Of a DNA stretch of 64,000 nucleotides, positions 32,552-61,884 are shown one piece after another (position 1 is the stretch's first letter; the number at the start of each line of letters is the position of its first letter). Position numbers and translations under genes: made by a program. The DNA is from Salinicola sp. (GTDB taxonomy: Bacteria; Pseudomonadota; Gammaproteobacteria; Pseudomonadales; Halomonadaceae): contig NZNW01000134.1 of the NCBI GenBank assembly GCA_002695065.1, positions 1 to 64,000 on the forward strand, given 5' to 3'. Below the pieces are notes generated by a model. That model was not told the origin of the DNA, made no database searches, and saw only the letters and a list, made by a program, of their open reading frames with translations.

Positions 32552-34261
32552 ATGAGCCAGAACGTCGCCGAAATCATCGTCGAAACCCTCTCCAGTGCCG
32601 GCGCGAAACGTTGCTACGGCGTGGTGGGGGACACCATCAACCACTTCACCGACGCCATCCGCCGCAGCGATCTCGAATGGGTTCATGTCCGCCACGAGGA
32701 AGTCGGCGGTTTCGCCGCGGGCGGCGAGGCCTACATGACTAGGGAGCTGGCGCTGTGCGCCGGTACCTGCGGGCCGGGCACGCTGCACTTCGTCAACGGT
32801 CTGTTCGAGGCGCATCGCAGCGGTTCCCCGGTGGTGCTGATCGCTTCCCAGGTCGGCACCGCCGATACCGGCATCGGCTTCCCCCAGGATGTCGACCCCA
32901 AGCCGATCTACGCACAGTACAGCGTCTTCTGCGAGACGATCATCAACCCCGATCAGGCGCGCAGGATGACGGCGCTGGCGGCCCAGGCGGCGTTGGCCGA
33001 AAACGGCGTCGCGGTGCTGATCGTGCACGGCGATCTGTTCACCCAGGAGCCGAGCCAGGACCTGCCCTACCGGGCGCACCGTTTCGACCCGATCACCCGG
33101 CCCAACGCCGAGGAACTGGTGCCGGCGATCAAGGCGCTCAACGCCGGCGGCAAGATATCCATCTTCGCGGGGGCCGGCTGCGAGCACGCCCGCAACGAGG
33201 TGATGGTGCTGGCGGCCAAGCTCAATGCGCCGGTGGCGTGGACCTCGCGGGCCAAGGACTTCATCGAACCCGACAATCCCTTCGAAGTCGGCATGACCGG
33301 GGTGTTCGGCCTGGCCGGCGGCTACCATGCCGTCGCCGACTGCGACACCTTGCTGCTGCTCGGCTGCAACTTCGCCTGGACGCAGTTCTATCCCGACAAG
33401 GCGACGATCATCCAGGTGGATATCGACCCGCAGCAGATCGGCAAGCGTCATCCGGTCGATATCGGGCTGCTCGGTAGCGTGCGCGACACCTGTGCCGCAC
33501 TGGCCCAGATCGTCGACGAGCAGCACGACACGGCGTGGCTGGACCGGTGCCGCAAGAGCTATCTCAAGGCGCTGGAGCACGACGCCCACGAGTCCGGGGA
33601 CGACGCGCTGATTCACCCGCAGGAGCTGACGCTGGCGCTGAACGAAGCCGCCCGAGACGATGCGTTCTTCACCGCCGATGGCGGCAGCCCGATGGTGTGG
33701 ATGCTGCGTCATATCCGTACCAACGGAAAACGGCGCACGCTGTCGAGTCTCGTCCACGGCACCATGGCCAATGCCTATCCCCAGGCGATCGGCATACAGA
33801 AGGCGTTCCCCGGGCGTCAGGTCATCGCCATGTGCGGTGACGGCGGCATGACCATGCTGATGGGCGATCTGCTGACGCTGAAACAGGAGCAGATCCCGCT
33901 CAAGATCGTCGTCTTCAACAACAGTTCACTGGGCTTCGTCGAACTGGAGCAGAAGGTCGACGGCCTGCTGGACAGCTACACCGATCTCGACAATCCGGAT
34001 TTCGGACTGCTGGCGCAGTCGATCGGCCTGTGGGGACGACGTGTCGAGCGCGAGCACGAACTCAAGCACGCCATTGCCGAGTGGCTGTCCCACCCGGGGC
34101 CGGCGATTCTCGACGTCAAGGTCAATCGCATGGAGCTGGTGATGCCGCCCAAGGTCGAGCCGGGGCAGGTCACCTCCACCGCACTCTACTCGGGCAAGGC
34201 CGTGCTCGATGGCCGCATGAGCGATGTCGTCGATCTGGTGAAGAGCAACTTCTGGAAGTGA
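32552..34261 (+). CDS. poxB: PoxB-type thiamine-diphosphate pyruvate dehydrogenase (quinone)/oxidase
   Basis: This 569-residue enzyme aligns by eye with E. coli PoxB over its whole length. RHEEVGGFAAGGEA carries the catalytic Glu, followed by AGTCGPGTLH, the thiamine-diphosphate-binding GDGGMTMLMGDLLTLKQ...VVFNNSSLGFVELE, and a C-terminal tail (MPPKVEPGQ to SNFWK) equivalent to the membrane-binding region of PoxB. PoxB converts pyruvate to acetate and CO2, reducing ubiquinone, mainly in stationary phase. A GGAG-type site (AAGGAGTC) precedes the ATG. It is monocistronic. Confidence 0.87.
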   Translation: MSQNVAEIIVETLSSAGAKRCYGVVGDTINHFTDAIRRSDLEWVHVRHEEVGGFAAGGEAYMTRELALCAGTCGPGTLHFVNGLFEAHRSGSPVVLIASQVGTADTGIGFPQDVDPKPIYAQYSVFCETIINPDQARRMTALAAQAALAENGVAVLIVHGDLFTQEPSQDLPYRAHRFDPITRPNAEELVPAIKALNAGGKISIFAGAGCEHARNEVMVLAAKLNAPVAWTSRAKDFIEPDNPFEVGMTGVFGLAGGYHAVADCDTLLLLGCNFAWTQFYPDKATIIQVDIDPQQIGKRHPVDIGLLGSVRDTCAALAQIVDEQHDTAWLDRCRKSYLKALEHDAHESGDDALIHPQELTLALNEAARDDAFFTADGGSPMVWMLRHIRTNGKRRTLSSLVHGTMANAYPQAIGIQKAFPGRQVIAMCGDGGMTMLMGDLLTLKQEQIPLKIVVFNNSSLGFVELEQKVDGLLDSYTDLDNPDFGLLAQSIGLWGRRVEREHELKHAIAEWLSHPGPAILDVKVNRMELVMPPKVEPGQVTSTALYSGKAVLDGRMSDVVDLVKSNFWK

Positions 34262-49668: not shown

Positions 49669-50556
49669 ATGTCCGATTCCCGCTCCGTCGCCGTGCTGGG
49701 CCTGGGCGCCATGGGCCACGCTTTCGCCGTTAACCTGCTGGAGGCCGGCTTCGATGTCAGCGTCTGGAACCGCTCGCCCGGCAAGGCGGATGACCTGGTC
49801 GCCGGTGGCGCCAGACTCGCCGACTCCGCCGCCGATGCCGTCGTCGATGCCCAGGCGGTCATCGTCATGCTGCCGGACCTGGCAGTAACCCGTGATGTGC
49901 TGCTGGGCGATCGCGGGGCGCTGGCGACGATGGCGAGAGACGCCCTGCTGGTTCAGATGGGCACGCTGGGCGTGGCCGAAACCGATCGACTGATCGCCGA
50001 AGTCGGTGAATCACGGGACGATATCGTCTTCATCGATGCCCCGGTTTCCGGCACCAAGGCCCCGGCCGAGCAGGGCGCGGTGGTCGTACTGGCCAGCGGC
50101 GACAGGGATCGCGCGGCAGGCGTCGTCGAGCCGATCTTCGACGTGCTGGGCAAACAGACCCACTGGCTGGGGCAGGCCGGACGGGGCGCGCGGATGAAGG
50201 TCGTCATCAACGCCTGGCTGATCTCGATGATGCAGGGGATTGCAGAGACCGCCCATCTCGCCGACGCGCTCGGCGTCGCGGGCGACGAGCTGTGGCAGAT
50301 ACTCGAGGGTGGCCCGCTGGCCACGCCCTACATGAAGCTCAAGCTGGACACGATCGCCGGCGGCGATTTCGATCCGCAGATGGCGCTGCAGTGGGGGCTG
50401 AAGGACGCGGGGCTCGCGCTGGAGGCGGGGGACGAAGAGGCGCTGCCGTCACTGTCCCAGATCCGCAACCTCTGGTTCGATGCGGTCGACGCCGGCCATG
50501 GCGAGCAGGATATCGCGGCGATCCACGCCTATCTGGATCGCTATCGTCGCCGATAG
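49669..50556 (+). CDS. Beta-hydroxyacid (3-hydroxyisobutyrate-type) dehydrogenase
   Basis: The ATG at 49669 sits at the right distance from GAGG; an ATG nine bases upstream is too close. The 295-residue product has the N-terminal VAVLGLGAMGHAFAVNL nucleotide-binding motif, DAPVSGTKAPAEQG as substrate motif and the catalytic Lys in ARMKVVINAW. It oxidises a 3-hydroxyacid or reduces a semialdehyde with NAD(P). It is convergent with argC. Confidence 0.87.
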   Translation: MSDSRSVAVLGLGAMGHAFAVNLLEAGFDVSVWNRSPGKADDLVAGGARLADSAADAVVDAQAVIVMLPDLAVTRDVLLGDRGALATMARDALLVQMGTLGVAETDRLIAEVGESRDDIVFIDAPVSGTKAPAEQGAVVVLASGDRDRAAGVVEPIFDVLGKQTHWLGQAGRGARMKVVINAWLISMMQGIAETAHLADALGVAGDELWQILEGGPLATPYMKLKLDTIAGGDFDPQMALQWGLKDAGLALEAGDEEALPSLSQIRNLWFDAVDAGHGEQDIAAIHAYLDRYRRR

Positions 50557-50567
50557 CGGCTGCCGAA

Positions 50568-50608
50568 CCTGCCGGGTCGGGCTTGGCGGCGGCCCCGACC
50601 TCGGCAGG
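50568..50608. terminator. Bidirectional hairpin between convergent genes
   Basis: A long stem (CCTGCCG plus GGTCGGG pairing with CCCGACC plus CGGCAGG, one bulged base) with a 12-nt loop occupies the 59-nt space between the dehydrogenase and argC stops. There is no T-run, so efficiency is uncertain. Confidence 0.5.
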
Positions 50609-50615
50609 CGAGGCG

Positions 50616-51623
50616 TCAGACGCCGAGGCCCGTCATCTCGTCCACCCCCAGATGCACGTTCATGTTCTGCACGGCGGAGCCCGCGGCACCCTTGCCGAGG
50701 TTGTCGAGTCGCGATACCAGGCAGACGCGCTCGTCGTTGCCGAACACGAACAGGTCGACGCGGTTGGTCTCGTTGGCGCCCTGGACGTCGAAGAAGCCGT
50801 TGTCCAGATTGTCGAGTGCCTCGACCGGCCGCACCCGGACGAACGGCTCGTCGGCGTAGTGCGCGCGATAGGCGCCGAGCAACTTCTCCGCGCCCACGCC
50901 CTCCGCCAGGTGCGAGAGCTGCAGCGGTACGCTGACCATCAACCCCTTCAGGAACGGGCCGACGATCGGTGAGAACACCGGCGGCTGCGCCAAGCGGCCA
51001 TGCTGCTGCATCTCCGGCAGATGCTTGTGGCCGAGCGCCATGGCGTAGGGGCGTGGCGCAGCCAGGCGGTCGTCACTGTCGTTCTGGTACTCGGCGATCA
51101 TCGCCTTGCCGCCACCGCTGTAGCCGGTCAGCGAGAACGCGGAGAGCGGATAGTCTGCCGGCAGCAGTCCAGCGTCCACCAGCGGTCGAACCAGCAGGAT
51201 GAAGGCGCTGGCGTGACAGCCGACGTTGGCGATGCGCTTGCTGGCGCGAATCCGGTCGCGCTGGCCCTCGTCGAGCTCCGGCAGCCCGTAGACCCAGCTC
51301 GGATCGGTGCGAAACGCCGTGCTGGCATCGATCAGGCAGGTATTCGGGTTCTCGACCATCGCCGCGGCTTCGCGGGAGGCCGCATCCGGCAGGCACAGAA
51401 AGGCGACATCGGCGGCGTTGAGCAGGCGCGCTCGCTCGGCCGGATCCTTGCGCTTGTCGCTGTCGATGCGCAGCAGCTCGATATCGTCGCGAGCCTGGAG
51501 ATAGTCGAACAGTCGCAAGCCGGTGGTGCCTTCCTGGCCGTCGACATAGACCTTGAAAGAGCCCTTGAAAGAGTCCCTCGAAGAGTCCTCGAAAGCGCGT
51601 TGGGATGAGTCCGGAGATGCCAT
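50616..51623 (-). CDS. argC: N-acetyl-gamma-glutamyl-phosphate reductase, type 2
   Basis: The ATG at 51623 follows AGGA. The 335-residue product matches type 2 Arg[19 protein letters not shown] near the N-terminus, [12 protein letters not shown], the active-site Cys in [12 protein letters not shown], and [14 protein letters not shown]. It reduces N-acetylglutamyl-5-phosphate in arginine synthesis. The first 24 residues are an extra polar extension ([12 protein letters not shown]) encoded by a 12-bp tandem repeat. The much longer open frame upstream is a shadow of the aminotransferase gene. Confidence 0.9.
51551..51598. repeat. Four imperfect 12-bp tandem units in the 5' end of argC
   Basis: Units beginning at 51551, 51563, 51575 and 51587 follow the pattern CCTTGAAAGAGT. 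They encode the four-residue periodicity in the N-terminal extension of ArgC. Confidence 0.75.
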
Positions 51624-51685
51624 GGGTGTTGTCCTGCCGTTGATCTTTGACGACGTCGTGATCGCGGTATTGTGCGGATTCGGGG

Positions 51686-52936
51686 TCAGCTTGTCATGCC
51701 GTCGAGCGGCCGGGCCGCCAGTCGGGACTCGCCCTGGCACTCCTGGGCGCAACGCTCGATTCGCCGGCACGCTTCGCGCAGGCGCTCGGCATCCACGGTC
51801 AGGCTCAGTCGCACGAACCCCGCGGCAGAGGCGCCGAAGGCCTCGCCTGCGAGTACCGATACGCCATGCTCGTCGAGCAGACGATCGGCGAAGGCGTGGG
51901 TACTGAGTCCTGTCGCGCGAATGTCGATCATCATGAACATCCCGGCGGCTGGCGGCAGCGTGGCGACGGTCTCGCTTTCGCGCAGGGTCTCGACCACCGC
52001 ATCGCGGCGCTGGCGGTAGGTCTCGCGCATCGTGTCCAGTGCTGCCGGCGGTGCGTCGAAAGCCGCGATGGCCGCGTCCTGGATGAACGGCTGGCAGCCG
52101 TAGAGCATGCACAGGGCGAGGTTGACCAGATGGGTCATCAGCGGCCGCGGGCCCACCACCCAGCCCAGCCGCCAGCCGGTCATGGCGTGGGATTTCGACA
52201 GGCTGCTGATCACCACGGTGCGCTCGCGCATGCCGGGCAGGCTGTCGGGGCTGAGGTGCTCGCCGTCGAAGATCAGGTCGGCGTAGACGGCATCGACGAT
52301 CAGCCACAGATCGTGATCGCGGCAGAGCGTGGCGATCGATTCCCACATCGCCGGCGTCAGGCACTGGCCGGTGGGGTTGTGGGGGCTGTTGATCAGGATC
52401 GCCTTGGTACGCGAGGTGATCGCCGCCTCGATGTCGGCCGGGCGGGGCTGGAAGCCTTCGTCGGCCGGCAGCGGCACCCATACCGGCACCGCGCCGGTGG
52501 ACTGCACCACCGCTTCGTAGGTGACGTAGGCCGGTTCGGGAATGATCACCTCGTCGCCGGGATCGAGCAGGCACTGTGCCGTGGCGTAGAGACCGCACTG
52601 CGCGCCAGCGAGCACGGCGACGTGTTCCGCGCTCGTCTCGGGCTGGCCGCCATGGGCGCGATGAAAGGCCGCGATGCGTTCGCGCAAGGCCTGCTTGCCC
52701 TGCACGTCGGCGTAGTGGGTCACGCCGCGACGCAGACTGTCGACGGCGGCGTCGACGATGGAGGGCGGGGTGTCGAAATCGGGATCGCCCACCGAGAGGA
52801 TGATGACATCCTCGCCACGGGCCTGGCGCGCCTTGGCGCGAAAGTGAATGTTCCAGGCGCTGGCGCCTTCGCCGGCGATGCGCCGGGTCAGTTGGGCATA
52901 GCGGGGAGACGAGTGGTGTGGGTCGGCTGAACGCAT
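51686..52936 (-). CDS. Class I pyridoxal-phosphate aminotransferase
   Basis: The 416-residue enzyme has the aspartate/aromatic aminotransferase pattern: [36 protein letters not shown] with cofactor Asp and Tyr, and the Schiff-base Lys in [15 protein letters not shown]. Its C-terminus ends 62 nt upstream of argC on the same strand, so co-transcription is likely. Donor and acceptor are unknown; a link to arginine or carnitine metabolism is not shown by sequence. Confidence 0.87.
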
Positions 52937-53009
52937 GACAGTCCCGTGGTGGCGAGTCGCGGAGTGGAAGCAAGCTGATAGTGACAGACTAACGATTCCG
53001 CGTTCCCAC

Positions 53010-53050
53010 GAACAGCCGCCGGGCGGGGAGTACCTGCTCGGCGGCTGTTC
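53010..53050. terminator. Hairpin between the binding-protein gene and the aminotransferase gene
   Basis: A perfect 11-bp stem (GAACAGCCGCC / GGCGGCTGTTC) with a 19-nt loop lies about 46 nt beyond the minus-strand binding-protein stop. No T-run follows. It most likely ends the tmpA-tmpB-binding-protein transcript. Confidence 0.6.
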
Positions 53051-53096
53051 TCCATTCCGGTCAGGTCCGACGGCTGGAAGCGGGCTGGCGGAAAGG

Positions 53097-54053
53097 TTAC
53101 TGCAGACTTGCCTTCACGGCGTCGAGCGCCGGTCGGCCATCGCGGGTGGTAATGCCGTCGAGGAACTCGGCGACGCGGTCGGGATGATCCTGCAACCATT
53201 GCCGGGCGACGTCTTTGGCCGAGCGCTCCTGGCGGCCGTAGCCGTCGATGAATTCGCTCTGCTCGTTGGCGGTCAGCGTGAACTGCTCGAGCAGTGCGAG
53301 CAGGTTGGGGTTGGCCTCGGCGAATGCCTTGTTGACGATGGTGCGCACGTCGCTCTTGCCGTTGTCCGGGCCGTAGACCGACGCCGGGTCGTCGAGAATG
53401 TGCATGTCATAGGCCGGTGCCATCCAGTGCGGTGTCCAGCCGTACCAGACGATCCAGCGCTTGTCGTTGAAGGCGGCGTCGACCTCCGACAGCATGCCCG
53501 GCGTCGAGGAGTCGAGAATCTGCCAGTCGCCCAGGCCGTAGACATCCTGGTCCTGCGCGTCATGGATGAACGTGCTGACCGTCGAGCCGGATTCGATCGA
53601 GTAGAAACGGCCATCGAACCGGTCGCGATACGCATCCAGGTCCTCGGCGCTGTGGACGCCGGCATCGTAGACGTAACCCGGCACCGCGAAGCCCATCCGT
53701 GCACCGGTGACGTTGTTGCCGAGATCCTCGATCTTGCCGCTGGCCATCGCCTCGTCGTGGCTCTCCTGCTGGGCCGGGAGCCAGCCGGCCAGGAACACAT
53801 CGCTGTCGCCGGTCTGAAGCGTTCGATAGCCGACCGTGCTGCTGACCTCCTGGCTCTCGCTGTCATAGCCGAGCGGTGCGATCAACTGGCTGAAGACTTC
53901 GGTCTTGACGGTGACGCCGGGCCAGGGCGGAACGACGAAATTGACGCTGTCGGCCCGATCCTGCGGTGGGCTCTGGGCGAGAGCCGACATCGATACGGTC
54001 ATCAGCGATAGCGGCAGCAGCGTGGCGGCCACGAGTGCGGTGCGCGGTGTCAT
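53097..54053 (-). CDS. Quaternary-amine ABC substrate-binding protein (OpuAC type)
   Basis: The start has an AGGAG site. The 318-residue protein has a signal peptide ending SALAQ and a betaine-type binding fold. The aromatic residues expected for a cation-pi box are visible in VPPWPG (residue 44 region), FLAGWLP and WIVWYGWTPHWM. It lies 56 nt downstream of the tmpB-like gene on the same strand, so it probably binds the substrate of that pathway. Carnitine or glycine betaine (CaiX-like) are alternatives. No ATPase or permease genes accompany it, so it must use a core transporter encoded elsewhere. Confidence 0.85.
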   Translation of the reverse strand: MTPRTALVAATLLPLSLMTVSMSALAQSPPQDRADSVNFVVPPWPGVTVKTEVFSQLIAPLGYDSESQEVSSTVGYRTLQTGDSDVFLAGWLPAQQESHDEAMASGKIEDLGNNVTGARMGFAVPGYVYDAGVHSAEDLDAYRDRFDGRFYSIESGSTVSTFIHDAQDQDVYGLGDWQILDSSTPGMLSEVDAAFNDKRWIVWYGWTPHWMAPAYDMHILDDPASVYGPDNGKSDVRTIVNKAFAEANPNLLALLEQFTLTANEQSEFIDGYGRQERSAKDVARQWLQDHPDRVAEFLDGITTRDGRPALDAVKASLQ

Positions 54054-54109
54054 GGTGACTCCTGGTTATTGTGGGAGTGATGGGCGTTACGGTCGGCGAG
54101 CGCGCGGGC

Positions 54110-54688
54110 TCAGCCGCTCGCAACGCTGGGCAGGCCCTCGCCTTCGAACGGCGGACGTGCCAGAACGCGCTCGAGTAGTGGACGGAAATGCTCGAGGGGA
54201 AGCGTGTCGTAGTCGGGGTCGAACGAGGTCTGATCCCATTCGTCGCAGAAACGAACCGTACGTTCGTAGCCGGGATGGCCGTGATAGTCGTCGCGAACGT
54301 GACGATCCAGACCGTAGAAGTGGCGGTAATGATAGCCCTGGAACAGCTCATGGTGGCGAATCATCCACACATTCAACGGATCGACGAACGGTTCGAGAAT
54401 GGCGGCGGCGATCTCGGCGTGATTGTCCGGCGCCAGATCGTCGCCGATATCGTGAAGCAGGGCGCAGACGATGGTTTCGTCATCGGCCCCGGCGCGCTCG
54501 GCGCGAGTCGCCGTCTGCAGGCAGTGGGTGTAGCGATCGACCGGATAGCCGTGCGTGTCACCTTCGAGGCGCAACAGATGCGTGATGACGCGCTCGACGA
54601 CGCCTTTGCGATAGTCGCGAAAGTGGGCGTCGATCTCGCGCCAGTCATTTGCCTGGCTATGGTCGAACCGGGTAAAAGTGGCGCTCAT
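54110..54688 (-). CDS. tmpB: TmpB-type HD-domain mixed-valent diiron oxygenase
   Basis: The 192-residue protein has an HD-domain ligand series His55, His79-Asp80 (LLHDIGDD), His90, His112-His113 (IRHHELFQGYH) and Asp149 (FCDEWDQ). Its size and pattern fit PhnZ/TmpB oxygenases, which cleave the C-P bond of a 1-hydroxyphosphonate, rather than ordinary HD phosphohydrolases. In the known pathway TmpB converts 1-hydroxy-2-(trimethylamino)ethylphosphonate to glycine betaine and phosphate. It overlaps the tmpA-like stop by four bases. The assignment depends mainly on this pairing. Confidence 0.78.
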   Translation of the reverse strand: MSATFTRFDHSQANDWREIDAHFRDYRKGVVERVITHLLRLEGDTHGYPVDRYTHCLQTATRAERAGADDETIVCALLHDIGDDLAPDNHAEIAAAILEPFVDPLNVWMIRHHELFQGYHYRHFYGLDRHVRDDYHGHPGYERTVRFCDEWDQTSFDPDYDTLPLEHFRPLLERVLARPPFEGEGLPSVASG

Positions 54689-55815
54689 GCGGACTCCTGG
54701 CGCGAGTGGGGGGAGACACCGGTCCGGCGACGTAACGTCAGGCGCCGGCTTGCGGTGGTGTCGCGATCGACGTAACCCTGGCGCAGATGGCGAATGCCCC
54801 GGTCGAGGCGGAAGGCGGTGCGCCCGTGGAGCAGACGGTAGTTGTCCATGATCAGCATCTCGCCCGGTGCCAGCTTGGGTGTCAGCGTCAGTTCCGGCGC
54901 GGTGATCAGCGCGAAGAACGCGCGCCGGGCAGCGTAGTAGCGCTCCAGTTGCTCTGGCGGCAGCGGCGGGATGCGCTCGGTGCGATTGTTGTAGCGCACC
55001 CGGACCACCTCGCCACGGGCGTCGAGCTCGATCAGCGGGCCCTCGCTTTCCAGGTGGGCGTCATCATCGACGTAGCGAAATCGGCTCGGCGTACGCGTCA
55101 GGCAGTCGAAAGCGTCGGGGGCGTCCCGGCGCAGGCGCTCCGCGGCCATGAAGCCGTCCGTCAGCGTGCTGTCACCGCCGCTGTCGGCGTTGCTCAGGCA
55201 GTGCAGCCAGATATAGCCGGGTATCGGGTCGCGGTAGGGGTTGTCGGTGTGCGGTTCGAGTCCGCGCTGCGTCATGGTCAGATCAAAGGCATCGTTGATC
55301 GACTTGACGTCGGCGATGGCGCCCCAGTTGGTCCGGCGCAGCGGCCCCAGGCGTTCCACCAGCGGCAGCATGCCATCGAGCGTCAGCGGCACGCCGCTGA
55401 CCTTGACGAAGCCGTAGCGCTCAAGCGCCTCGAGCATCTCCGACAGGGCGTCGTCGCATTCCAGCGCAGGGGTGAAATCGGCGCTCGGTAGCTCCGGCAG
55501 TGACGCATCCCAGTGCTCATGGCCGGCGCCGGCATGCGCCTCCGGATGCAAGTCACGCAAGGCGAAACGGGCGCGATGCCCGTCGCTGAACGTCAAGTCG
55601 ACCGTCTCGCCGTCGCAGTCTGCGCCGGCCAGCGCCAGCTCCAGCGGCAGGGCGGCAGCCTCGATCAGCCGCTGGCCGGTGCGGGGATCGAGAGTTTGCG
55701 CATCGGGGGAGCGCTCGCGTAGCCACAGCGCATGGAAGCGCGTTTCCCGATTGCCCTCGACCACTCTCAGTTGACGGGCGTCGGTACCGGGAATGATCTC
55801 GACGAAAACGTCCAT
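54685..55815 (-). CDS. tmpA: TmpA-type 2-(trimethylamino)ethylphosphonate dioxygenase
   Basis: The 376-residue protein is a TauD/TfdA Fe(II)/2-oxoglutarate oxygenase with an N-terminal GBBH-like domain (FHALWLRERSPD) and facial triad His189, Asp191 (EPHTDNPY) and His330 (LLHGRTAF). It lacks zinc-binding cysteines in the N-terminal domain. Such proteins are usually labelled gamma-butyrobetaine hydroxylase, but overlap with an HD-domain oxygenase gene is diagnostic of TmpA, which hydroxylates the phosphonate at C1. VRYNNRTERIP at 272-282 differs from true GBBHs. A butyrobetaine activity is the main alternative. Confidence 0.77.
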   Translation of the reverse strand: MDVFVEIIPGTDARQLRVVEGNRETRFHALWLRERSPDAQTLDPRTGQRLIEAAALPLELALAGADCDGETVDLTFSDGHRARFALRDLHPEAHAGAGHEHWDASLPELPSADFTPALECDDALSEMLEALERYGFVKVSGVPLTLDGMLPLVERLGPLRRTNWGAIADVKSINDAFDLTMTQRGLEPHTDNPYRDPIPGYIWLHCLSNADSGGDSTLTDGFMAAERLRRDAPDAFDCLTRTPSRFRYVDDDAHLESEGPLIELDARGEVVRVRYNNRTERIPPLPPEQLERYYAARRAFFALITAPELTLTPKLAPGEMLIMDNYRLLHGRTAFRLDRGIRHLRQGYVDRDTTASRRLTLRRRTGVSPHSRQESA

Positions 55816-55910: not shown

Positions 55911-56921
55911 ATGTCCGATCGTCCGACGCCGGAATGGCTCTATCCCCGCCCCGACCTGCCGCCCGTTCTGTCGCCTGAAGAGGCGGATGTCACGGTCAAT
56001 CTCTGGTTGCTGCCAAAGTTCTCGATGCTGACGCTCTACTGTCTGCTCGAGCCGCTGCGCGTCGCCAATCGATTCGGGCGCTCGCTGTTCGCGTGGCGGC
56101 TGTTTTCCAACGATGGCCGGCCGGTGACCGCCAGTAACGGCGTGACCGTCGATGTCGATGCGGCGCTGGGGCGAACGCCGATCTTCGACAACCTGTTCGT
56201 GGTGGCGTCTTACGAGGCCGAGGCGACGGTGGCCTCGTCGCATTGGGCGGCGTTGCGACAGGTGGCGGCCCATGGCGGTTTGCTCGCGGCGCTGGAGACG
56301 GGGGCGTTCATTCTGGCTCGGGCCGGGTTGCTGGACGGCTTCGAAGTGGCCCTTCACTGGGAGAGCGCACCGGCCTTCGCGGAAGAGTTCCCCGAGCTCG
56401 CCCTGAGCGACGCCCGCTACCGGTTCGATCGCCAGCGTCTGACGGGCGGTGGCGGCGCGGCCAGTCTCGATCTGATGATGGCTTTCATCGAGCGGGAGCA
56501 CGGGACCAATCTGGTCGCGGCACTAAGCCGTCAACTGGTGCACTCGCGTCTGGATCCTCGCATCCAGAGTGATATCGAGGGGCGGGCCGGCTCGGAGTAT
56601 CTCCCCCGGAGCGTTCGTCGGGCGGAGGCGATCATGGAGGCCCATCTGGCGCAGCCGCTGACGATCCCGGATATCTGTCGCCGTGTCGGCCAGTCCCAGC
56701 GCCAGCTCAACCGGCTCTTCCAGCGTTATCGTGGCGAAACGGCGAAAGGCCGCTATCTGTCGCTGCGACTCGATCGGGCCCGGCAGATTCTCGCCGATAG
56801 TCGAACCAGCGTGACCCAGGCAGCACTGGCGGCAGGATTCGCTCAGCCAGCGCATTTTTCCCGGGTCTATCGGGCACGGTTCGGCGAGTCACCGCGAACC
56901 ACGGCACAGCGGGGCAGATGA
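55911..56921 (+). CDS. GlxA/AraC-type regulator (GbdR/CdhR-like) between tmpA and cdhC
   Basis: The ATG at 55911 gives 336 residues: an N-terminal DJ-1/PfpI-like amidotransferase-type sensing domain (LWLLPKFSMLTLYCLLEPLRVANRF) and a C-terminal AraC double helix-turn-helix from about residue 240 (IPDICRRVGQSQRQLNRLFQRYRG). GbdR and CdhR of Pseudomonas have this layout and sense glycine betaine or carnitine. It diverges from tmpA (95-nt space) and lies upstream of cdhCAB on the same strand, so it could govern both. Confidence 0.85.
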   Translation: MSDRPTPEWLYPRPDLPPVLSPEEADVTVNLWLLPKFSMLTLYCLLEPLRVANRFGRSLFAWRLFSNDGRPVTASNGVTVDVDAALGRTPIFDNLFVVASYEAEATVASSHWAALRQVAAHGGLLAALETGAFILARAGLLDGFEVALHWESAPAFAEEFPELALSDARYRFDRQRLTGGGGAASLDLMMAFIEREHGTNLVAALSRQLVHSRLDPRIQSDIEGRAGSEYLPRSVRRAEAIMEAHLAQPLTIPDICRRVGQSQRQLNRLFQRYRGETAKGRYLSLRLDRARQILADSRTSVTQAALAAGFAQPAHFSRVYRARFGESPRTTAQRGR

Positions 56922-57072: not shown

Positions 57073-57954
57073 ATGAATCGCGACGTCATCCTGACCTGTG
57101 CCGTGACCGGCGCCGGCGATACCGCCGGCAAACATCCGGACCTGCCGATTACCCCGCGCCAGATCGCCGATAGCGCGCTGGACGCCGCCCGCGCCGGTGC
57201 CAGCATCGTCCATCTCCACGTGCGCGATCCGGAAACCGGCGGCGTCAGCCACTCCACCGATCACTTCCGCGAGGTGGTCGAGCGCATCCGCGAGTCCGAC
57301 GTCGACGCGGTGATCAATATCACCGCCGGTGGCGGCGGCGACCTGTTTCCCGAGATTCGCGACGGGATGATCCACGGGCTCGACGGCACCGACCTGCAGA
57401 CCGCGGCGGAGCGTCATCACCCGGTGGGCGAGCTGCTGCCGGAACTCTGCACGCTGGACTGCGGCAGCCTCAACTTCGGCGACATGGTCTATCTCAACAC
57501 CGCCGACTGGCTGCGCGAGCATGCGCGTCTGATCCAGCAGGCCGGGGTCAAGCCGGAGCTGGAGTGCTTCGATCTCGGCCATGTCTGGTTCGCACGTCAA
57601 CTGGTAGAAGAGGGGCTGATCGACGGCGACCCGCTGTTCCAGCTCTGCCTGGGGATTCCCTGGGGCGCCGAGGCCGACACCGAGACCATGCTGGCGATGC
57701 GCAACAAGCTGCCGGAAAACGCGATCTGGTCGGCGTTCGGCATCGGTCGCCAGCAGTTCCCGATGGCGGCGCAGTCGATGATCATGGGCGGGCACATGCG
57801 GGTTGGCCTGGAAGACAACCTCTACCTGAGCAAGGGCGTCTTCGCCACCAACGCCCAACTGGTCGAGCGTGCCGCCACCATCGTCGAAAACCTGGGTGGC
57901 AAGGTGCAGACGCCGGCACAGACGCGGGAGTCGCTGGCGCTGCGCAAGCCCTGA
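57073..57954 (+). CDS. cdhC: Dehydrocarnitine cleavage enzyme (BKACE family)
   Basis: The ATG at 57073 has an AGAGGA site. The 293-residue product has the beta-keto acid cleavage enzyme pattern: zinc ligands His47 and His49 in VHLHVRDPETG, NITAGGGGDLFPE, LDCGSLNF, and GGHMRVGLEDNLYLSKG with the conserved Glu. With acetyl-CoA it splits 3-dehydrocarnitine into betainyl-CoA and acetoacetate. Its position before the carnitine dehydrogenase and thioesterase genes makes the substrate assignment firm. Confidence 0.9.
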   Translation: MNRDVILTCAVTGAGDTAGKHPDLPITPRQIADSALDAARAGASIVHLHVRDPETGGVSHSTDHFREVVERIRESDVDAVINITAGGGGDLFPEIRDGMIHGLDGTDLQTAAERHHPVGELLPELCTLDCGSLNFGDMVYLNTADWLREHARLIQQAGVKPELECFDLGHVWFARQLVEEGLIDGDPLFQLCLGIPWGAEADTETMLAMRNKLPENAIWSAFGIGRQQFPMAAQSMIMGGHMRVGLEDNLYLSKGVFATNAQLVERAATIVENLGGKVQTPAQTRESLALRKP

Positions 57955-58054: not shown

Positions 58055-59026
58055 ATGACTGCTTCCGAACTTCCCCGCAACGTCGCCGTGATCGGTACCG
58101 GCGTGATCGGCAATGGCTGGATCGCCCGCGCCCTGGCGGCCGGCTGCCGGGTGACCGCTTTCGACCCAGATGCCACGGCCCCCGAGCGCACCCGCGCCTT
58201 CGTCGAGCGTGCCTGGCCGGCGTTGGAGCGGCTGGGGCTCGCCGAGAACGCCGATCCCGAGGCGCTGACTTTCGTCGATTCACTGGAGGCCGCCGTCGAA
58301 GGCGCCGAACTGATCCAGGAGAACGTGCCCGAGCGGCTGGCGCTCAAGCACGACGTTCTGAGCCAGCTAGATGCGCTGGCCGCGCCGGGCGTGGTGATCG
58401 GCTCGTCGACCTCCGGGATCAAGCCGAGCGATCTGCAGTCGGCCTGCACCCGAGAGCCCGGCCGCGTGATCGTGGCGCACCCGTTCAATCCAGTCTATCT
58501 GCTGCCGCTGGTGGAGCTGGTCGGTGGCGAGCACACCGCGCCGGTGGTGATGGAACGCGCCCAAGTCCAGTACGCTGCGCTGGGCATGCGTCCGCTGGTG
58601 GTGCGTCGCGAGATCGAGGGGCACGTCGCCGACCGGTTGATGGAGGCGCTGTGGCGCGAGGCGCTGCACCTGGTCAACGACGGCGTCGCCACCACCGAGG
58701 AGATCGACGCGGCGGTGATCTACGGCTGCGGTCTGCGCTGGTCGCTGATGGGCACCTTCCTGACGTTCCATCTGGCCGGCGGCGACGGCGGCATGCGCCA
58801 TATGCTGCACCAGTTCGGCCCGGCGTTGAAACTGCCGTGGACCAAGCTGGAAGCGCCGGAACTGACCGACGAGCTGATCGACAAGGTGGCCGACGGTTGC
58901 GAGCATCAGGCTGCCGGGCGCAGCGTTGCCGAGCTCGAGACACGCCGCGATGCGTTTCTCACCGAGCTGCTCGAGCTGACCCAGAAGTACTGGCCGGAGG
59001 CCGAAGGGCTCCAGGGCCGGATTTGA
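58055..59026 (+). CDS. cdhA: L-carnitine 3-dehydrogenase
   Basis: The ATG at 58055 follows GGAG. The 323-residue product belongs to the 3-hydroxyacyl-CoA dehydrogenase superfamily and has the carnitine dehydrogenase pattern: VAVIGTGVIGNGW for NAD binding, ELIQENVPERLALK, SSTSGIKPSDLQ and HPFNPVYLLPLVE with the catalytic His. It oxidises carnitine to 3-dehydrocarnitine, the substrate of CdhC. It lies 100 nt after cdhC and is followed closely by the thioesterase gene. Confidence 0.93.
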   Translation: MTASELPRNVAVIGTGVIGNGWIARALAAGCRVTAFDPDATAPERTRAFVERAWPALERLGLAENADPEALTFVDSLEAAVEGAELIQENVPERLALKHDVLSQLDALAAPGVVIGSSTSGIKPSDLQSACTREPGRVIVAHPFNPVYLLPLVELVGGEHTAPVVMERAQVQYAALGMRPLVVRREIEGHVADRLMEALWREALHLVNDGVATTEEIDAAVIYGCGLRWSLMGTFLTFHLAGGDGGMRHMLHQFGPALKLPWTKLEAPELTDELIDKVADGCEHQAAGRSVAELETRRDAFLTELLELTQKYWPEAEGLQGRI

Positions 59027-59534: not shown

Positions 59535-60794
59535 TCAGTTCCCTGGCACCACTGACGAGGCGACCCGCTCCCGGCGTCGGGCGCGATGCAGCATGCGCAG
59601 GCGGGAGCGGGCTTCGTCGCGCTCCAGATAGCAGCCCTGCAGCCAGCGACGGCCGCCCTGGCTGATATCGAAGGCGTCGCGAGCGTGGAGCAGGCGCCGG
59701 TTGTCGAAGATCACCAGGTCGCCGGGCGCGTAGCCGAAGCGCAGCGCGAATTCAGGCTCGCGCAACAACCGTTGCAGCGTCATCAGCGCCGCGTAGGCGG
59801 GCTCGACGTCGTCGAACGGCGCCATCAGTGGGCCGCGCAGGAAATCCGCGATGCGGACTTCATCAAACTCTCCCCGGGCGTCGAGCTTGATCATCGGGTC
59901 GAACCAGACGTAGTCACTGGTCCTGGCGGTATTGGCGTAGCACCAGCGCACGCGGGTGAGCGTCGCGAAATGCTCGGGATGGCGCTCGCGCAGGGCCTCG
60001 GCCACGGCGAAGCCGTCCATCATCACCGCCTCGCCGCCGACGGTATCGTTCTCCAGACAGTGCAACAGCTGCAGGCCTGGCTGGTACTCTCGAGTCGGCA
60101 GATCGACGTGGGGCGGCAGGGCGATCGAAGTATAGGCATTGGAGTCCGGATCCGGCTTGGCGCGGACGTCGAACAGGTGGCCGAAGTTGGTCGGTCGCGG
60201 TGGGCCGATGCGCCGTGCGATGAGATCCAGGCTGCCCGGCTCGACGGGCAGGTTGCGTAGCCTGACCAACCCTTCACCGATGACCGCCTCCAGCGCCTGT
60301 TCCAGCAGCGGGTCGATGCTGGTGGCGTCGTGTTCGGCGTCCATCCAGCCGCTGGCGTCGAGCGTGGTCGGCTCGCTGCGTTCGGCGCCACGCCAGTGTG
60401 TCGTGGCCACCAGCGGGTCTTCGGCGGCCGTCTCGTTGTCGTAGTCGTGGGCGCGCAGCCAGCCGGGGTGAAACGACAGGCGGCGTCGCTCGGGCAGAAA
60501 CTCGAGCGTGACCGCGCCGCTGGTCTCCAAATGGGCTTCGCCGATGGTCGGCCATGCCCCTAATCGGGAAAGATCGAGGATGCGTTCCCGTGTCGTCGGG
60601 TTGATCGTGCTGTCGTCGGCGGCATTCTCGCGTAACCAGATGCTGTGGTAGCGACTCCTGCGACCGTCCTGCCAGTCGATCGTCAGTTGCCTGTCGTCGT
60701 GGGTGATACCGGTGATGGAGTGATCGACCGGCCAGGCGTCGAAGTCCGGCGTGGCAGGGAGGGCGTGTGACCGGGGATTCGAGACGGCTGACAT
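59535..60794 (-). CDS. Gamma-butyrobetaine dioxygenase-like enzyme
   Basis: The ATG at 60794 (GGAG site) gives 419 residues, similar by eye to bacterial GBBH: HPGWLRAHDYD, RPTNFGHLFDVRAKPDPDSNAYT and PGLQLLHCLEND, with the triad His229, Asp231 (PPHVDLPT) and His370 (LLHARDAF). It would hydroxylate gamma-butyrobetaine to L-carnitine. The N-terminal domain retains IWLREN, but the CPCxDC zinc cysteines of classical GBBH are replaced by NAADDSTI. It converges with cdhB, 17 nt away, so product and degradation genes are adjacent. Confidence 0.82.
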   Translation of the reverse strand: MSAVSNPRSHALPATPDFDAWPVDHSITGITHDDRQLTIDWQDGRRSRYHSIWLRENAADDSTINPTTRERILDLSRLGAWPTIGEAHLETSGAVTLEFLPERRRLSFHPGWLRAHDYDNETAAEDPLVATTHWRGAERSEPTTLDASGWMDAEHDATSIDPLLEQALEAVIGEGLVRLRNLPVEPGSLDLIARRIGPPRPTNFGHLFDVRAKPDPDSNAYTSIALPPHVDLPTREYQPGLQLLHCLENDTVGGEAVMMDGFAVAEALRERHPEHFATLTRVRWCYANTARTSDYVWFDPMIKLDARGEFDEVRIADFLRGPLMAPFDDVEPAYAALMTLQRLLREPEFALRFGYAPGDLVIFDNRRLLHARDAFDISQGGRRWLQGCYLERDEARSRLRMLHRARRRERVASSVVPGN

Positions 60795-60876
60795 GAGGGG
60801 CTCCGAAGGCATCGCTGCTGGGGGTCGAGTCAGCGTGGCGGATGACCCGGTACCGGGATTGCGCTTAAACGCCATT

Positions 60877-61884
60877 TTATTGAGGTTTTTGGCCGTGATT
60901 GGGAGGTGGCGCTGAATGCCCGTCGGGACGCCGCGAAGCGCTGGGAGGCGCCCCGAAGCGTTGGCGATAGGCACGGGAAAAGCTCGAGGCCGAACTGAAA
61001 CCACAGGCCAGGCCGATGCTCAGAATGTCGCGATCGGTCTCCTCGAGCAGATGTCGGGCTCGATCCAGCCGCAGTTCGAGGTAGTAGTCCCGGGGGCGCT
61101 TGCCCAGTTCATCGAGAAACAGCCGCTGGAGCTGGCGCATGGAGAGGCCGATCCGATCGCTCACCGCGGTCATCGAGAGCGGCTGTTCGAGGTGGCGTTC
61201 CATCAACGCGACGGCGTCCACCAGCGGTCGGCGGTGCGTGCCCAGGCGTTTCGCCAGCGGCAGGCGCTGATGCTCCTGGCGCGGGCGCAGGCGGGCGTGG
61301 ATCAACTGCTCGGAAATGTCGTCGGCCAGTCCCTGGCCGTGGCGACCGGCGATCATGCTCAGGGTCATGTCCATGGCGGCGGCACCGCCGGCGCAGGTGA
61401 AACGGCGGGCGTCGATCTCGAACAGCGACTCGACCGCTTCCAGCGTCGGGAACCGCTCGCGAAACGCCGGCAGGCTCTCCCAGTGCAGCGTCAGGCGATG
61501 GCCGTCGAGCAACCCCATTTCCGCCAGCAGCAGCGGGCCGGTATCGATGCCGCCCAGCAGACAGCCTTCACTGGCCTGGCGGTGCAGCCACTGGGAGAGC
61601 CTGCGCGGCAGGCCGCGCTCCGGTTCGAAGCCCGCGCACACCGCCAGCGTCGGCAGCGAGGGGGCATCGACCAGGCCGCAATCCATGAGCAGGGTCATGT
61701 CGTTGCTGGCGGTCACGGGCTGACCATCTTCGCTGATCAGCGTCCAGCGATAGAGCTCACGACCGGACAGTCGGTTGGCGATTCGCAGCGGCTCCACGGC
61801 GGCGAAGAACGCCATCATCGAGAAGCGCGGAATCAACAGGAAACCCACGGGTTCGGGGAGCGGTCCCCCATAGTCCGGGCGCAT
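60877..61884 (-). CDS. GlxA/AraC-type regulator, second copy
   Basis: The 335-residue product has the same plan as the regulator at 55911: a DJ-1/PfpI-like domain (GFLLIPRFSMMAFFAAVEPLRIANRL) and a C-terminal AraC domain (MTAVSDRIGLSMRQLQRLFLDELGKRPRDYYLELRLDRAR). It lies 82 nt upstream of the butyrobetaine dioxygenase-like gene on the same strand and diverges from the haloacid dehalogenase gene. GbdR or CdhR identity cannot be separated by eye. Confidence 0.85.
   Translation of the reverse strand: MRPDYGGPLPEPVGFLLIPRFSMMAFFAAVEPLRIANRLSGRELYRWTLISEDGQPVTASNDMTLLMDCGLVDAPSLPTLAVCAGFEPERGLPRRLSQWLHRQASEGCLLGGIDTGPLLLAEMGLLDGHRLTLHWESLPAFRERFPTLEAVESLFEIDARRFTCAGGAAAMDMTLSMIAGRHGQGLADDISEQLIHARLRPRQEHQRLPLAKRLGTHRRPLVDAVALMERHLEQPLSMTAVSDRIGLSMRQLQRLFLDELGKRPRDYYLELRLDRARHLLEETDRDILSIGLACGFSSASSFSRAYRQRFGAPPSASRRPDGHSAPPPNHGQKPQ

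Follow-up and report, generated by a model that had tools for sequence, protein, structure and literature searches.

A TmpA-like oxygenase and an overlapping HD-domain protein distinct from TmpB in Salinicola sp.: a possible two-step cassette for the shortening of omega-cationic carboxylic acids

The subject of this work is a pair of overlapping genes in a stretch of 64,000 nucleotides of Salinicola sp. (contig NZNW01000134.1, positions 1 to 64,000; hereafter the window), which is part of a 4.68 Mb draft genome spread over 153 contigs (the window contig being C137) of an organism that is probably salt-loving, judged from its Halomonadaceae kinship. The pair encodes a TauD-type Fe(II)/2-oxoglutarate oxygenase (TauD1) and an HD-domain protein (HD), and is followed by a gene for a substrate-binding protein. 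The original prediction had taken the pair for TmpA and TmpB, which convert 2-(trimethylamino)ethylphosphonate to glycine betaine and phosphate. Judged by its sequence, TauD1 fits the curated TmpA model but has a changed substrate site and is paired with a protein other than TmpB. The HD protein, judged by its predicted fold and invariant ligands, is probably an HD diiron oxygenase. The two may form an oxidative cassette that takes one carbon off an omega-cationic carboxylic acid in two steps; we regard this reading, in which both chemistry and substrate are deduced, as quite possible though short of an even chance. The three genes lie where they had been predicted:

54685..55815, minus strand: TauD1, 376 amino acids, Fe(II)/2-oxoglutarate oxygenase of the GBBH (gamma-butyrobetaine hydroxylase)/TmpA family (TauD/GBBH-like_N), proposed alpha-hydroxylase
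54110..54688, minus strand: HD, 192 amino acids, candidate diiron oxygenase from a family other than TmpB/PhnZ
53097..54053, minus strand: substrate-binding protein of the OpuAC/ChoX type, 318 amino acids

The start of the HD gene overlaps the stop of the TauD1 gene by four bases (ATGA), as predicted. The Pfam scores of the three proteins were 157.9 bits for TauD, 35.7 bits for HD and 187 bits for OpuAC, and among named organisms the HD protein matched best to Chromohalobacter, Halomonas, Onishia and Vreelandella (69-75% identity).

By the sequence features tested, the HD protein is distinct from TmpB. It scored 41.0 bits on the TmpB model NF049941 against a cut-off of 300, 43.6 bits on the Phn-HD model (cut-off 214.6) and 23.7 bits on the PhnZ1 model (cut-off 300), the general Pfam HD model being the only curated model passed, and its identity to the two TmpB relatives compared was 26.1 and 29.6%. 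No TmpB above the cut-off was found in the window's own genome by the model search. A review (PMC8177086) describes a substrate-binding loop YxxE for both PhnZ and TmpB (Y24/E27 and Y30/E33). When 24 rows of the HD family were aligned with eight TmpB and two Phn-HD proteins, the place of the loop glutamate was occupied by Glu in all ten of the latter and by Tyr or Phe in all 24 family rows, while the loop tyrosine, present in all ten, occurred in a single family row (L082); the window protein reads THGY here. HDxG is followed by His in the ten and by Asp in all family rows, with loss of the HDxGH motif, the lysine of AKRYL is replaced by Gln in all family rows, and the QGG stretch, found in ten out of ten, is absent from every family row. 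Conversely, all 24 family rows have Arg52, which is missing from each of the ten. The printed PhnZ match carries YIGE, HDLGH, AKRYL and QGG in common with TmpB, and these motifs are absent from the window protein. In the corresponding tree, a branch supported at 100/100 separated the family rows from TmpB and Phn-HD; TmpB formed no clade against the two Phn-HD rows, themselves long branches.

The putative metal ligands of the HD protein (H55, H79, D80, H90, H113 and D152) show no variation among 39 aligned relatives or among the 24 family rows, in agreement with the oxygenase-like ligand set of the original prediction. The set H...HD...H...H...D is that of the HD mixed-valent diiron oxygenases, but taken alone it is also present in some hydrolases. 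The predicted structure (pLDDT 91.2, from a 39-row alignment) points to the same class of oxygenases: the top ten Foldseek matches in the PDB, at E 7.6e-7 to 7.3e-6, were all chains of TmpB or PhnZ, followed in eleventh place by a tRNA-processing enzyme complex (E 0.038), and myo-inositol oxygenase was found at E 0.62.

TauD1 passed the NCBIfam TmpA equivalog NF049936 with 422.6 bits, 22.6 bits above the cut-off of 400, whereas two TmpA proteins adjoining a true TmpB scored 537.9 and 545.1 bits. On the GBBH model TIGR02409, it reached 261.9 bits against a cut-off of 414.75; this model is not exclusive, as it gives 513.4 bits to one TmpB-paired TmpA. In one detail this departs from the original prediction, which expected routine annotation to call the oxygenase a GBBH: NCBIfam would already name it TmpA. 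Its best PDB match was TmpA (6npb, E 8.2e-64; human GBBH, E 4.6e-45), and its identity to TmpA of Leisingera caerulea was 37.5% across 336 columns. According to PMC9296572, the phosphonate in TmpA is bound by Asn187, Asn287 and Arg288. With residues numbered as in the 6npb chain minus 6, which agrees with the published residues, all 29 TauD1 rows have Asp at 187 and keep Asn287 and Arg288, while 13 TmpA rows have Asn187 in 13, Asn287 in 11 (Ala in two) and Arg288 in 13. Positions 173, 177 and 190, which we take to be the trimethylammonium cage from the alignment and partly from what is remembered of GBBH, are W, A and M in 29 of 29 TauD1 rows, and Y, F and Y/F in 13 of 13 TmpA rows, so that one aromatic (Trp) is left in TauD1 and two are replaced (A177 and M190).

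In the tree of TauD proteins, TauD1 formed a clade (100/100) that joined four LysR-type TauD proteins also paired with the HD family (98/91), a join flagged by the tree tool as long branches meeting. TauD1 and this sister clade joined TmpA weakly (89/65), with the second GBBH/TmpA-family oxygenase of the window (TauD2) further out, and TauD1 grouped neither with human GBBH nor with a third such oxygenase (L068, described below). The GBBH identity of TauD1 was rejected on the grounds of the model score below the cut-off, the residue changes and the position in the tree. The two proteins belong to a common fold family and carnitine genes adjoin TauD1, but the two-Asn site of GBBH/BBOX is represented in TauD1 by N187D together with Arg288. 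The predicted structure of TauD1 was poor (pLDDT 55, ten-row alignment), and no pocket model was used.

The neighbourhood of the pair in the window, which includes genes related to carnitine and betaine, is as follows:

51686..52936, minus strand: aminotransferase of class I/II, also represented in 24 of 28 related loci; whether it belongs to the pathway in the window's genus is uncertain
55911..56921, plus strand: AraC1, GbdR-like AraC regulator, divergent (234.7 bits, GbdR cut-off 480)
57073..57954, plus strand: BKACE (beta-keto acid cleavage enzyme), by context for the step from dehydrocarnitine to glycine betaine
58055..59026, plus strand: L-carnitine dehydrogenase (414.6 bits, cut-off 414)
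59535..60866, minus strand: TauD2, second GBBH/TmpA-family oxygenase (start not fixed, the open reading frame (ORF) reaching 61004)
60877..61884, minus strand: AraC2, second GbdR-like AraC regulator (323.3 bits, cut-off 480)

These genes were followed in 28 loci selected for holding the TauD1-HD pair, of which at most 27 are distinct (L050 and L072 are probably one genome, others may overlap, and genome G027 contributes both L048 and L054). Genes in related loci were picked with a home-made ORF chooser that missed some, and neighbours were counted by comparing all ORFs with chosen reference proteins. The AraC1 homologue was present in all 28 loci, the binding protein in 27, the aminotransferase in 24, TauD2 in 23, AraC2 in 22, and carnitine dehydrogenase and BKACE in 17 each. 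A decarboxylase similar to AruI was found in 14 loci, the ATPase, binding protein and permease of a cationic amino-acid ABC transporter in 14 each, and an aldehyde dehydrogenase (ALDH) in eight. For the AruI-like gene of L051, the model '5-guanidino-2-oxopentanoate decarboxylase' gave 791 bits (cut-off 500). The ABC binding protein encoded in the same locus matched cationic amino-acid, histidine and lysine/arginine/ornithine-binding proteins (its binding residues were ambiguous and were not used), and the ALDH of L078 was nearest to betaine- and aminobutyraldehyde dehydrogenases, under their cut-offs. Because the pair, the regulator, the binding protein and the overlap of the two genes (gap -3 in 27 of 28 loci, as ORFs called) recur across these loci, the pairing of TauD1 and HD is more than chance.

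The binding protein was predicted to be of the betaine type, and its residues agree with this. In all cluster binding proteins covering the places, three Trp are kept that align with W16, W63 and W178 (chain numbers) of ChoX, presumably its cage residues, and Asp18 of ChoX is replaced by Gly; these residues fit betaine rather than choline, short of proof.

We favour, tentatively, a pathway in which a cationic amino acid would be imported, transaminated, decarboxylated and oxidised in related genera to give an omega-cationic acid. TauD1 would then hydroxylate the carbon adjoining the carboxylate, as TmpA does beside the phosphonate, and HD would cleave the C-C bond of the resulting 2-hydroxy acid with O2, releasing CO2 and an acid one carbon shorter, in what would amount to PhnZ/TmpB chemistry carried over to a carboxylate. 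The carboxylate would be bound by Asn287 and Arg288 so that, as in TmpA, the alpha carbon lies at the iron, and a longer chain could be admitted because the residues at 177 and 190 are smaller. The likeliest single substrate may be 5-trimethylaminovalerate (delta-valerobetaine), although we would still call this identification rather unlikely, and the claim on the chemistry is the stronger of the two. This compound is made from trimethyllysine by microbes (PMC8976029). Its shortening would give gamma-butyrobetaine, which could be converted to carnitine and further to glycine betaine via the adjoining carnitine dehydrogenase and BKACE. Among the matches listed in a search of the open-licence literature, subscription papers being outside it, we found neither a description of this HD family or of the TauD1-HD pair in Halomonas nor a bacterial enzyme that shortens 5-trimethylaminovalerate.

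The HD family extends far beyond these clusters. At E 1e-20 or better, 59 of 398 genomes sampled from the phylum contain it, the window's own being one of them. In the family-level group to which the window belongs, a search showed it in 20 of 37 genomes, so that it is common there and not universal. True TmpB above the cut-off was present in 13 of the 398, nine of which (G105, G109, G121, G124, G136, G174, G277, G325 and G389) carry both proteins at different places, and TmpB and the HD family are therefore no substitutes for each other. Partners were looked for within 3 kb in 109 HD loci picked by similarity to the window protein (L036-L150 without L065-L070): TauD1 occurred in 28, an Mpo1-like protein in 28, the LysR-type TauD in four, a protein of the aldolase II family in the absence of TauD1 in 22 (with PhyH in two of them, L116 and L083, the latter also with a TauD), and a Crp-type regulator as the sole partner in two. 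Typing assigned one Mpo1-like protein (L086) to PF06127 and one PhyH protein to PF05721. Twenty further loci, which are not independent, were hand-picked from the search that had found the 59 genomes, seven because TmpB occurs there too; among the twenty, PhyH adjoined HD in four (L216, L218, L221 and L232), a TauD of the LysR-type clade in one (L226), and in three loci of one genus (L215, L219 and L220) HD stood in a row with BKACE and a homologue of carnitine dehydrogenase. In L219, the dehydrogenase scored 596.1 bits on the carnitine 3-dehydrogenase model (cut-off 592) and was followed by an acyl-CoA dehydrogenase, a CoA-ligase-type protein and an enoyl-CoA hydratase. The genomes of L215, L219 (2058-8141) and L220 also carry true TmpB elsewhere. 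The aldolase II family gene recurs near HD in several lineages (L073:13338-14081, L056:8716-9498 and L116:9203-9964); it is of the PRK07044 type in L073 and L056 and was present in eight of the 28 Halomonadaceae clusters.

The HD family is widespread, apparently uncharacterised, and found beside genes for carnitine and for fatty-acid alpha-oxidation. It is conceivable, if on the whole doubtful, that it comprises diiron oxygenases which cleave 2-hydroxy carboxylic acids at a C-C rather than a C-P bond, acting with TauD or PhyH hydroxylases or beside Mpo1-like enzymes so that betaine acids and fatty acids undergo alpha-oxidation, and which in Halomonadaceae make gamma-butyrobetaine from 5-trimethylaminovalerate.

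Several observations weigh against a carbon-removing cassette of this kind. TauD1 has an acidic residue, Asp187, near the place of the anion in TmpA, and the loss of two of the three cage aromatics, only Trp remaining, makes a trimethylammonium substrate not obvious. In the binding protein, Tyr92 of ChoX is replaced by Met in 28 of 28 rows. In the window genome, no AruI-like gene above the cut-off was found (best 284.9, cut-off 500), and entry from an amino acid by the AruI route would consequently not work there. TauD2, which adjoins carnitine dehydrogenase, scored 303.6 bits on the GBBH model against the cut-off of 414.75. In all of its 25 rows (one a window copy) the three cage positions are still aromatic, and the places of Asn187, Asn287 and Arg288 of TmpA are taken by Ser, Asp and Phe. 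A protein of the genome that has both Asn187 and Asn287 (L068) sits on another contig and is likewise under the GBBH cut-off, with 334.9 bits. Furthermore, 25 of the 109 HD loci and ten or more of the 20 further loci contain none of the partners looked for, no hydroxylase was seen among the genes typed in L219, the recurring aldolase II is unexplained, and several of the associations of HD with its partners may be single events kept by descent.

The oxygenase of L068 (2396-4836, contig C86) is a third member of the GBBH/TmpA family with an adjoining choline-type binding protein, and it is a candidate for the true GBBH of the window genome. A thiamine-pyrophosphate enzyme at 32558-34132 of the window (plus strand) gave 172.9 bits on the AruI model, below the cut-off.

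The pair may act instead on another phosphonate or on a different betaine, such as beta-alanine betaine or a derivative of trimethyllysine, or may attack a betaine elsewhere in the molecule, which we consider unlikely but worth serious attention. PhyH partners exist for the HD family, and PhnY is an enzyme of the PhyH family. A second TauD-HD pair occurs in L055, L060, L061 and L062, with a relative in L226, and its oxygenase has Asp187, Pro287 and Arg288. In the four loci aligned, the cage positions are F/F/Y, which a short betaine similar to beta-alanine betaine would fit. TauD1 itself, however, lacks this cage of short spacing, and no phosphonate gene was present among the cluster genes typed.

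A different cationic acid could also be shortened in the same manner. In this case, 4-guanidinobutanoate from the arginine transaminase route would be alpha-hydroxylated and cleaved to 3-guanidinopropanoate. The AruI-like decarboxylase, the aminotransferase and the cationic amino-acid transporter in half of the related clusters point in this direction, as does the loss of cage aromatics in TauD1. However, the pair is accompanied by carnitine genes and a betaine-type binding protein, and arginine probably has a separate AruI enzyme. AruI-like genes above the cut-off were found in seven of 14 genomes searched, four of which hold two or three, and in the tree 13 cluster rows (two identical) were separated from seven paralogues by a 100/98 branch. 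The paralogue loci have an ALDH in six of seven and a common neighbour cluster in five of seven, one member of which, typed in L176, belongs to the agmatinase family (201.1 bits, cut-off 174.3) and occurs with a sigma54-type regulator. By gene content, this is the context expected for arginine. In the window's genus, an AruI-like gene was found in one of six other genomes searched, and it was of the paralogue type. With arginine probably directed there, the shortening of a guanidino acid by TauD1 and HD seems to us distinctly unlikely.

The TmpA/TmpB function itself, in which 2-(trimethylamino)ethylphosphonate would be hydroxylated and its C-P bond cleaved to give glycine betaine and phosphate, appears very unlikely. 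It is favoured by the TmpA model score and best PDB match of TauD1, by its weak grouping with TmpA, by the conserved Asn287 and Arg288, by the three Trp of the binding protein and by the predicted fold of the HD protein, which is nearest to TmpB. In addition, TmpA/TmpB of Leisingera caerulea (6npb and 6npa) likewise consist of a 2-oxoglutarate oxygenase gene followed by a gene for an HD protein of the oxygenase fold, and PMC8177086 describes the same tandem logic for PhnY/PhnZ, which act on 2-aminoethylphosphonate and have the same fold; PhyH-family partners occur with the HD family too, but the partner in the window is of the TauD type. In contrast, the HD protein is far below the TmpB cut-off and lacks the YxxE glutamate, HDxGH, AKRYL and QGG, the HD family coexists with TmpB in nine of 13 TmpB genomes, TauD1 lacks Asn187 and two cage aromatics in every row, and TmpA proteins that are paired with TmpB score higher. 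The genomic context also differs, its genes pointing to cationic amino acids, carnitine and betaine. Across the window, Pho-box-like matches were at the level of chance (four, against 3.66 expected), and none was found in the gap between AraC1 and TauD1, where a diverged site may escape. The original prediction was thus right about a TmpA-like oxygenase accompanied by an oxygenase-fold HD protein and is not supported in equating the two with TmpA and TmpB. The pair resembles TmpA/TmpB and PhnY/PhnZ in architecture, but judged by the features tested the HD protein falls outside TmpB.

The organism probably uses phosphonates by a separate C-P lyase route, since PhnJ is present elsewhere in its genome (493.2 bits; contig C135, region 49915-55678; L182 and L235). 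This route by itself is no argument against TmpA/TmpB, being neutral or weakly against a need for them. One strong match to PF12974, a phosphonate-binding protein, lies about 5 kb from PhnJ on the same contig; the genome has 13 matches to PF12974, three of them above 200 bits, and as the model also matched in 12 of 14 control genomes it is not specific.

That the HD protein is an ordinary phosphohydrolase or housekeeping enzyme overlapping TauD1 by chance is highly improbable, for although the general Pfam HD model is the only one passed and many homologues have no TauD neighbour, TmpB and PhnZ were the sole Foldseek matches at E <0.001 with hydrolases far below them, which also disfavours a nucleotide hydrolase, and both the overlap in 27 of 28 loci and the six ligands are conserved.

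If a carbon-removing cassette is indeed encoded here, PhnZ-type diiron chemistry would extend from phosphonates to carboxylates. The 'TmpA' equivalog annotation would then be wrong for a group of Halomonadaceae, and surveys that count phosphonate degradation solely from matches to the TmpA model or from PhnZ-like matches would be inflated. Since 59 of the 398 genomes sampled contain the HD family, what it does concerns many genomes. In PMC8976029, 5-trimethylaminovalerate is a gut metabolite reported to inhibit carnitine synthesis in mammals, and for this reason a bacterial route consuming it would matter, if it exists.

The removal of one carbon via attack at the alpha carbon is also the net logic of the Mpo1 and phytanoyl-CoA alpha-oxidation systems, which act on fatty acids or acyl-CoAs. 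Yeast Mpo1 reportedly functions in the alpha-oxidation of a 2-hydroxy fatty acid. Mpo1-like and PhyH genes are neighbours of the HD family, but they belong to different protein families. In the 28 loci with an Mpo1-like partner, which come from Pseudomonas and related bacteria, the HD gene stands immediately after the Mpo1-like gene (for instance L086:9590-9976). By analogy, this arrangement suggests a bacterial module for the alpha-oxidation of 2-hydroxy fatty acids, and these loci may represent one evolutionary event.

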